A model generated the notes under the pieces. The model ran no database searches and had not been told where the DNA came from. It saw only the letters and a list, made by a program, of their open reading frames with translations. 64,000 nucleotides of DNA. Source: an uncultured Mucispirillum sp. (GTDB lineage Bacteria; Chrysiogenota; Deferribacteres; Deferribacterales; Mucispirillaceae). Shown in pieces: positions 26,894 through 51,603 of the stretch. The DNA lies in contig CALUZC010000006.1 of assembly GCA_944325215.1 (NCBI GenBank), positions 1 to 64,000 of the forward strand. Direction: 5' to 3'. A program made the translations under genes and the position numbers. How positions within the stretch are numbered: position 1 is the first letter of the stretch; each line of letters starts with the position of its first letter.

Positions 26894-26943
26894 AAAAAAT
26901 CGTTTCACATAACAAATCTTAAAATCGTTTTAAATTTTCAATA

Positions 26944-35996: not shown

Positions 35997-36517
35997 TTAC
36001 CTATGCCCCTTATTTAATTCTTTTTGATATTCGATATTTGATAATGCCACTGTAATATACGTATATACAGCACTTTCAAAACTCATATTCATTACTTTAT
36101 CATAATCACCAAACCCATTTAATATAAGGGTGGTGACTATGGCATTACATGGATAATTTATTTTTGAAGAGCTTGAGCTTGTAACTCCATAATTTTGCCC
36201 CTGGAAATGTTCAAGCTCCCTAAATAGGGGGCTATGTAGTTCTCAAACTCTTCTGCAATTTTAATGCTCATAAATGGGTTATCAAATATAGCATCCAGCT
36301 CAGCTAAACTTTTAATGTGTTGTTCTGTTCCTGTTTCTGGAATGATTAATACAAGATATTTAACTGCAATATTCACAAACTTATTAACAGCTGCTTCTTC
36401 TTGTTTTGCCATACCATCCGCAGTTGTTATGATTTTTAACCCATCTTCCATGGTAACTTTTTTAAAGTATGCTTGACGTGTAGTCTTGCCATCACTTAAT
36501 TCAAATGTATGTTTCAT
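35997..36517 (-). CDS. Tail assembly chaperone, -1 frameshift product (G/GT-type)
   Basis: The zero-frame gene (36,158-36,517) ends CTT CAA AAA TAA. A -1 slip on the A-run just before the stop gives AAA ATA AAT and continues 53 codons to a stop at 35,997-35,999 (INYPCNAIVTTLILNGFGDY, ending YQKELNKGHR). This second frame has no good start of its own and no other gene covers it. A -1 frameshift before the tape-measure gene is conserved in many tailed phages and has been described for Mu. I infer it here from the open frame and slippery run. Confidence 0.7.
36158..36517 (-). CDS. Tail assembly chaperone (G-type, short product)
   Basis: 119 residues beginning MKHTFELSDGKTTRQAYFKK, mainly helical with an acidic middle. 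It lies between the tail tube and tape-measure genes, the standard place for the chaperone that coats the tape measure before tube polymerisation. The frame ends at a slippery A-run (see the frameshift product). Confidence 0.75.
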   Translation of the reverse strand: MKHTFELSDGKTTRQAYFKKVTMEDGLKIITTADGMAKQEEAAVNKFVNIAVKYLVLIIPETGTEQHIKSLAELDAIFDNPFMSIKIAEEFENYIAPYLGSLNISRGKIMELQAQALQK

Positions 36518-40798: not shown

Positions 40799-40827
40799 TT
40801 GAATAATTATAAAAAGTTTGATATATT
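40799..40827 (+). promoter_or_regulatory. Promoter of the type I toxin mRNA
   Basis: TTGAAT (40,799-40,804), 17-bp spacer, TATATT (40,822-40,827). The message would start near 40,834 with GCAGTTGGG, complementary to sequence at its own 3' end (41,033-41,044). An identical promoter faces it at 41,047-41,075. Confidence 0.75.
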
Positions 40828-40879
40828 AGCGGTGCAGTTGGGAATAGGTGGTTGCCTACTTTTTTAGGAGGCAGGCTTT

Positions 40880-40957
40880 ATGATATATGAAAGCTGGGTG
40901 TCAATCATTGCTCTAACTTTCATAATTGCCTTTGCTTTAATTATTATAAAGCGATAG
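40880..40957 (+). CDS. Putative type I toxin peptide (25 aa, hydrophobic)
   Basis: 25 residues: MIYESWVSIIALTFIIAFAL, then IIIKR. One membrane helix and a basic end, the layout of small type I toxins (Fst, Ldr, TxpA/BsrG types). AGGAGG lies 8 nt before the ATG. It reads opposite to the late genes around it, has its own consensus promoter, and is faced by an antisense RNA gene with an identical promoter. It is probably kept silent by that RNA and, when made, would depolarise the membrane. No sequence family is assigned. Confidence 0.75.
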   Translation: MIYESWVSIIALTFIIAFALIIIKR

Positions 40958-40963
40958 CGTTCA

Positions 40964-41040
40964 TAAAAAAACCGCCTAAGTGAGCAGACTTCGGCGGATT
41001 AAAAAAAATATTTTAAATCTCTGAGGCAATCACCCCAACT
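40964..41040 (-). ncRNA. Putative antitoxin antisense RNA
   Basis: On the minus strand a promoter TTGAAT (41,070-41,075), 17 bp, TATATT (41,047-41,052) would start an RNA near 41,040. It ends at a strong terminator: CCGCC / GGCGG hairpin (40,972-40,997) followed by T7 (40,965-40,971). The RNA, about 77 nt, is antisense to the 3' part of the toxin message, as in TxpA/RatA and BsrG/SR4 systems. Late-operon read-through has the same polarity and would also act as antitoxin. Confidence 0.7.
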
Positions 41041-41132
41041 GCACTTAATATAAACTAGTTTTCCATTTCATTCAAGTAAAAAGTTAAAATGATTTTAAAT
41101 TTTTTTATTATTTTTACTTACTATTTTTTAAA

Positions 41133-41254
41133 GGTTATAAGATTTTTGGCTAGTTCTAGGCGGCTTTTAAATCTGGCAAAGGAGTTTACACAAAAAGGTA
41201 AATGACTGAAGACAGATTAAAAAACAACAACGAAATAGCCAAAAAGATATAACC
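41133..41254 (+). repeat. Structured repeat family 1, copy B
   Basis: Outer stem GGTTATA / TATAACC with AGA opposite GA, continued by TTTTTGGCTA / TAGCCAAAAA. Conserved CTAGGCGGC. Inner stem TTTTAAATCTG / CAGATTAAAA. Apical GAGTTTACA...GGTAAATGA. AACAACGAA follows the inner stem. It starts at the stop codon of the gene at 41,256. Confidence 0.88.
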
Positions 41255-42110: not shown

Positions 42111-42313
42111 GGCAATAAGATTTTTGTGCTGGTTCTAGGCGGCGAGCGGTTTTCAGCGAGGACACTTTTTCCCTAGCGAGTAGCGTAGGAAACAGAAAAA
42201 GTGGCTGGGGCAGTTGTTCCAGCGGGATTTTTTATTTCCTCCTTACTCAGTCGGAAAAATCCCACCTCGTAAAATGCACTCGCCAACACCGAAACAGCCA
42301 AAAAGATATTGCC
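42111..42313 (+). repeat. Structured repeat family 1, copy C (expanded)
   Basis: Outer stem GGCAATA / TATTGCC with the same AGA/GA mismatch, then TTTTTG...CAAAAA and CTAGGCGGC. The inner part is expanded: stem GGCGAG / CTCGCC holds two hairpins, ACTTTTTC / GAAAAAGT capped by CCTA/TAGG, and GGGATTTTT / AAAAATCCC. It begins next to the stop codon of the capsid gene. The compensating outer stem makes it clearly the same family. Confidence 0.85.
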
Positions 42314-51567: not shown

Positions 51568-51603
51568 ATATTTATCTCCATATTTTAAAATCATTTTAAA
51601 ATT

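Follow-up and report, generated by a model that had tools for sequence, protein, structure and literature searches.

A candidate family of type I toxin-antitoxin-like modules with covarying mRNA ends in prophages and other elements of Mucispirillum

Introduction

Several described type I toxin-antitoxin systems share parts of the organisation considered here. In Bacillus subtilis, bsrG/SR4, txpA/RatA, bsrE/SR5 and yonT/SR6 are prophage-borne and associate a membrane peptide with a convergent antisense RNA lying over the 3' part of the toxin mRNA (PMC6562991). SR4 binds the 3' end of the bsrG mRNA and thereby, from far downstream, tightens the stem hiding the Shine-Dalgarno (SD) sequence, which grows from 4 to 8 bp (PMC6562991). 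In Helicobacter, the aapA/IsoA systems combine a short membrane peptide with a basic C end, a long-distance pairing of the mRNA 5' and 3' ends, SD-hiding leader hairpins and several copies per genome (PMC6733600, PMC10537873); there, the anti-SD is supplied by the 3' end and trimming yields the active mRNA (PMC6733600). Up to the description of a cyanobacterial example, Proteobacteria, Firmicutes and Tenericutes were the only groups known to have type I systems (PMC12390103, 2025). In hok/Sok, the mRNA 5' and 3' ends also pair and a role in stabilising the carrying element has been proposed.

The locus described here lies at positions 40799-41075 of the window, i.e., the whole stretch of 64,000 nucleotides analysed, from an uncultured Mucispirillum sp. 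As judged by sequence comparison, it is a member of a family of type I toxin-antitoxin-like modules that had not been named before and is perhaps the first of type I in Deferribacterota. It shares with the B. subtilis systems the prophage location, the membrane peptide and the convergent antisense RNA over the 3' part of the mRNA; a tightening of the SD-hiding stem by the antitoxin is, for the module, a prediction of the energy model. It differs from them in a peptide of 24-26 aa without Pfam or NCBIfam relationship, in an overlap of about 75-80 nt against 100-140, in mRNA ends paired over 20-32 bp and in the phylum of the host. The likeness to aapA/IsoA takes in the short membrane peptide, the end-pairing, the leader hairpins, several copies per genome and the basic C end, the window peptide ending in KR, but whereas the aapA 3' end carries an anti-SD, that of the module carries an SD-like segment, pairs with the anti-SD strand and is predicted to lower the opening energy of the ribosome-binding site (RBS) in 15 of 16 loci. 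Paired mRNA ends and a proposed element-stabilising role are common to hok/Sok, from which the module is distinguished by a peptide without Hok homology and an antisense RNA placed at the 3' UTR. The module peptide is about half the size of Hok. The msoT1/msoA1 system of Microcystis belongs to another phylum, and end-pairing is not mentioned in the description consulted. The modules would add a conserved, mobile type I-like family in the Deferribacterota, a lineage of gut mucus whose biology is poorly known.

Elements of the locus in the window

An earlier note on this DNA had proposed a complete type I locus comprising a 25-residue peptide, two identical facing promoters and an antisense RNA with its terminator. 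All these elements, together with the inverted 5' and 3' ends, are present within 40799-41075 as described, and the same architecture recurs in 21 other loci. The features are as follows.

40799..40827, plus strand: predicted toxin promoter, TTGAAT-17-TATATT with TG extension; counterpart in relatives loosely kept
40832..40857, plus strand: 5' arm of the toxin mRNA, pairing with 41024-41044; its inner end doubles as anti-SD strand
40855..40871, plus strand: SD-hiding hairpin of the predicted leader fold, 40855-40861 pairing with the SD at 40866-40871
40866..40871, plus strand: Shine-Dalgarno sequence AGGAGG
40880..40957, plus strand: ORF of the proposed toxin, a single-pass membrane peptide of 25 aa, MIYESWVSIIALTFIIAFALIIIKR
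40965..41044, minus strand: proposed antitoxin RNA (about 75-80 nt), its antisense overlap confined to the 3' UTR of the toxin mRNA
40965..40997, minus strand: intrinsic terminator of the antitoxin, CCGCC/GGCGG stem at 40972-40997 and U7 toward 40965
41024..41044, plus strand: 3' arm of the toxin mRNA; inner end SD-like (GAGGC), complement equal to the antitoxin 5' end
41075-41047, minus strand: antitoxin promoter, TTGAAT-17-TATATT without TG; best-conserved element of the family
41083..41099, no strand: AT-rich palindrome at the cassette border, possibly a weak terminator of the toxin mRNA

The two promoters are thus identical in hexamers and spacer, only that on the plus strand bearing the TG extension. 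The predicted antisense RNA (40965-41044) would fall entirely inside the 3' UTR of the toxin mRNA, the ORF ending at 40957. The inverted repeat joins GTGCAGTTGGG (40832-40842) to CCCAACTGCAC (41034-41044), and the mRNA 40833-41045 is predicted to fold at -73.2 kcal/mol, compared with -47.1 +/- 4.1 for shuffles (z = -6.4), its two ends being joined in a helix of 20 bp.

Taken singly, each promoter match is weak (10 matches versus 6.5 expected in shuffles), and single consensus promoters as well as 25-aa ORFs are frequent by chance. That ORF, promoters and palindrome are nothing but accidents of AT-rich phage DNA is nonetheless refuted by the family of 22 homologous loci with covarying arms reported below, which leaves this explanation a vanishingly small probability.

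Of note, the AT palindrome TTTAAAATSATTTTAA is found at 26918-26934, 41083-41099 and 51584-51600, one copy lying at the module border; with up to two mismatches, it has eight matches against 1.8 expected. It could possibly act as an operator, a terminator or an insertion site.

A family of homologous loci

A DNA search of related genomes returned a 99% copy and several diverged ones from the same genus, and peptide-profile and promoter-pattern searches brought the set to 22 homologous loci, with peptides of 24-26 aa falling into two subfamilies, namely M[ILV]xES[WYC] and MxYE[HN]H-like. Nearly all are from Mucispirillum (Deferribacterota), with one in a sister genus and none in the other genera searched. 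In a profile scan of 290 genomes from 242 genera, nine genomes matched at E <= 0.001, all in the bacterial family of the window's genome, and no match was obtained beyond Mucispirillum and the one sister genus. One contig (L078) carries the label Clostridiaceae; since its neighbouring gene is common to a Mucispirillum locus (G004C68), it is probably mis-binned.

All the peptides possess a hydrophobic core, the best 17-residue hydropathy ranging from 1.9 to 3.4 across the 22 loci, and most a basic C end. Over six pairs of loci, a larger share of synonymous sites (22/91) than of nonsynonymous ones (44/359) has changed (Fisher p = 0.007), purifying selection being visible in some pairs and not in every pair. 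One copy (G006_1471) has its ORF end frameshifted near the stop. On the opposite strand, TTGNNN-17-TATATT occurs 82-99 nt past the stop codon in 20 of the 22 loci, the toxin promoter being much less regular among loci than this antisense promoter. In the relatives read, a hairpin equivalent to the terminator lies directly 3' of the stop codon with its U-run on the antisense strand. An antisense RNA directed at the 3' part of the toxin mRNA, as the earlier note had it, is thus supported by a conserved promoter and terminator, and the type I toxin-antitoxin-like nature of the locus is strongly supported by the conserved family. On these sequence grounds, the module is probably a type I toxin-antitoxin-like system whose antitoxin targets the 3' UTR.

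The family went without counterpart in the collections searched. The window has no match in Rfam at gathering thresholds, and the module peptides have no credible match in PHROGs, Pfam or NCBIfam, including no Pfam or NCBIfam match pointing to BsrG/TxpA homology and none to Hok up to E = 10. Public phage and plasmid records yielded no match by DNA or tblastn. In IMG/VR, there was no exact DNA match, a peptide pattern matched 17 stretches of which none was confirmed, a DNA pattern gave seven matches, all in unrelated reading frames, and further patterns gave none or unrelated ones. A literature search combining Mucispirillum or Deferribacter with toxin-antitoxin found no report. Among rejected candidates, BLAST matches on two contigs (G000 C11 and G001 C62) are non-members, the match being limited to a promoter-like stretch upstream of an apparent Lrp-type regulator, and seven of the 17 matches of one pattern search were not module loci.

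The ends of the toxin mRNA covary

The 3' arm directly precedes the antisense -10. In 21 of the 22 loci, a duplex search using short arms showed it to pair with the arm at the mRNA 5' end over 20-32 bp; one locus (G009C137) is without end-pairing as anchored. In 21/22 loci, the pairing exceeds that of shuffled sequences (z from -3.8 to -10.3), at most one in 300 shuffles being as good. Arm sequences have diverged widely among loci, yet remain matched inside each locus. In subfamily A, cognate arms pair best in nine loci out of nine, which none of 100,000 permutations equalled. Changes on both sides, i.e., covariation, are observed at 28 of 33 positions, a count that used fold-derived pairs and so leans to structure, unlike the shuffle and permutation tests. 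In the prophage of genome G007, which holds two modules, the arms scarcely cross-pair (-16 versus -37 to -41 kcal/mol). Such strong covariation argues, from sequence comparison, that the mRNA 5' and 3' ends co-evolved to pair, and bears out the earlier proposal that the toxin mRNA can pair its own ends.

Genome G006, a single contig, contains five module copies, at 517k, 1471k, 1715k, 1753k and 1770k. As the arms of its subfamily B copies cross-pair strongly, the antitoxins of this genome may act on one another's toxins.

Leader hairpin, end-pairing and opening of the ribosome-binding site

Alone, the leader is predicted to fold into an SD-hiding hairpin in 22/22 loci. The anti-SD strand of this hairpin and the 5' arm overlap by 4-13 nt in all 16 non-redundant loci; the hairpin and the end-pairing therefore compete. 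When the 3' arm was swapped for shuffles, the opening energy of the RBS predicted by the energy model rose in 15/16 loci, by a mean of 3.1 kcal/mol (Wilcoxon p = 9e-5, an optimistic value as the loci are related). Predicted mean opening amounts to 9.4 kcal/mol at full length and 12.6 with the antisense target removed. The effect is only partial, since the SD stays mostly paired in full-length folds, its mean unpaired fraction being 0.23 versus 0.19 without the 3' arm. For the window locus, the shift is modest, 7.7 kcal/mol at full length versus 9.2 or 6.7 for two truncations.

Such pairing could be understood as a lock of the hok/aapA kind, in which the end-paired full-length mRNA would be inert, 3' trimming would activate it and the antitoxin would catch the trimmed form. 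The same 5'-3' long-distance pairing and co-transcriptional SD-hiding hairpins are known from aapA (PMC6733600), and the full-length fold is very stable. However, in aapA it is the 3' end that hides the SD as an anti-SD, whereas here the 3' arm is SD-like and pairs with the anti-SD strand, trimming it would also lose part of the antitoxin target, and its removal is predicted to make the RBS harder to open in 15/16 loci. A lock is accordingly an unlikely account: because the 5' arm overlaps the anti-SD strand and loss of the 3' arm hinders RBS opening, it is doubtful and, under the energy model, less likely than the opposite effect. Of the hok-type control put forward in the earlier note, the end-pairing stands, while the effect predicted for it runs opposite to a hok/aapA lock.

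An antitoxin that only forms a 3'-UTR duplex cut by RNase III, as with TxpA/RatA, the end-pairing merely shielding the mRNA ends from exonucleases, would agree with an antisense RNA limited to the 3' UTR as in the RNase III-cleavage systems of B. subtilis (PMC6562991). It would leave unexplained both the overlap of 5' arm and anti-SD strand in 16/16 loci and the predicted start of the antitoxin exactly at the 3' arm, and is rated improbable, to about the same degree as the lock.

Given that overlap, and given that a shuffled 3' arm raises the opening energy, opposite to aapA, preference goes to the reading in which end-pairing opens the message for translation, which is held tentatively on model predictions. 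In that case, the toxin mRNA 3' end would serve as an activator that exposes the ribosome site, and the antitoxin, a small RNA copying the leader, would compete for that end; this account is plausible at best and short of an even chance. Worded as a sequence of steps, (i) the peptide would be a membrane toxin, (ii) the leader hairpin would hide the SD, its upstream strand belonging to the 5' arm, able to pair with the 3' arm instead, (iii) end-pairing would loosen the hairpin and allow translation, (iv) the antitoxin would compete for the 3' arm, because its 5' end repeats the 5'-arm sequence, (v) once the antitoxin has taken the 3' arm, the hairpin would reclose, comparable to the action of SR4 on bsrG (PMC6562991), and RNase III would remove the duplex, and (vi) upon loss of the element, the antitoxin would decay first and leftover mRNA would be translated, thereby stabilising the element. 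If true, type I control would here operate by mimicry of the mRNA 5' end and would mirror the lock of hok/aapA. Thanks to the strong natural covariation, the role of end-pairing as lock or opener is testable by comparing natural loci.

Genomic context and mobility

Around the module, the late genes of the window all lie on the minus strand, namely tail sheath, neck (phrog_222), head protein (phrog_302), major head protein and head morphogenesis protein. These structural genes are common to six orthologous prophages (G000, G007, G003, G002, G004 and G008). At their head-neck junction, G000 and G007 carry the module, G003 and G002 lack it, and G004 and G008 have a replacement. Where the tail-region gene (36158-36517) adjoins the tape-measure gene, another version is found in G007 and G004 but in none of the other four; the G007 prophage thus carries two modules. 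Short type I cassettes would hence enter, and disappear from, set positions between the late genes of phages. The remaining copies adjoin a TrbB-like type IV secretion ATPase and ParA, a NikA-like mobilisation protein and an integrase, or chromosomal genes. Judging from these positions, the module moves between prophages and putative conjugative elements.

The earlier note had reasoned that an antitoxin sharing the polarity of late transcription would let lytic growth silence the toxin. Orientation is not conserved: both toxin genes on contig C50 of G005 run parallel to the tail genes, so polarity is not the working principle, and other copies lie outside phages. The toxin might be freed upon loss of the prophage.

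The peptide might also be a harmless membrane regulator, e.g., of a phage or host membrane complex, merely under antisense control; among six predicted type I toxins of cyanobacteria, no more than two reduced the growth of Escherichia coli (PMC12390103). Yet the modules are self-contained cassettes, mobile and patchily distributed, which bring their own antisense gene and sit in prophages as well as conjugative and mobilisable elements; this better fits addiction modules, and a harmless role is considered quite unlikely.

Some further observations concern the surroundings of the modules. The window's own genome holds a second module (G000:C2:3924-3998, L085), MVYEHHLTIFILMLVTATIIFYIKK, flanked by genes for a TrbB-like ATPase and for ParA, in what is likely a conjugative element. 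At the head-neck slot of G008 and G004 (L119, L120), the replacement is a 130-aa membrane/coiled-coil gene (phrog_11227), and as this gene fills the slot of the module, the junction has the appearance of a cargo site. Between late genes, intergenic elements in the form of long imperfect palindromes occupy 41143-41245 and 42171-42301; the G003 prophage has a relative of the latter at its head-neck junction (L122), which points to a palindrome that is mobile and repeated. Finally, a conserved promoter-like sequence unrelated to the module, CTTAATATAACATAATTTATGTTTTATTCAAG, stands beside one same gene in three Mucispirillum genomes (L059, L061, L071), with a near-copy in a fourth.
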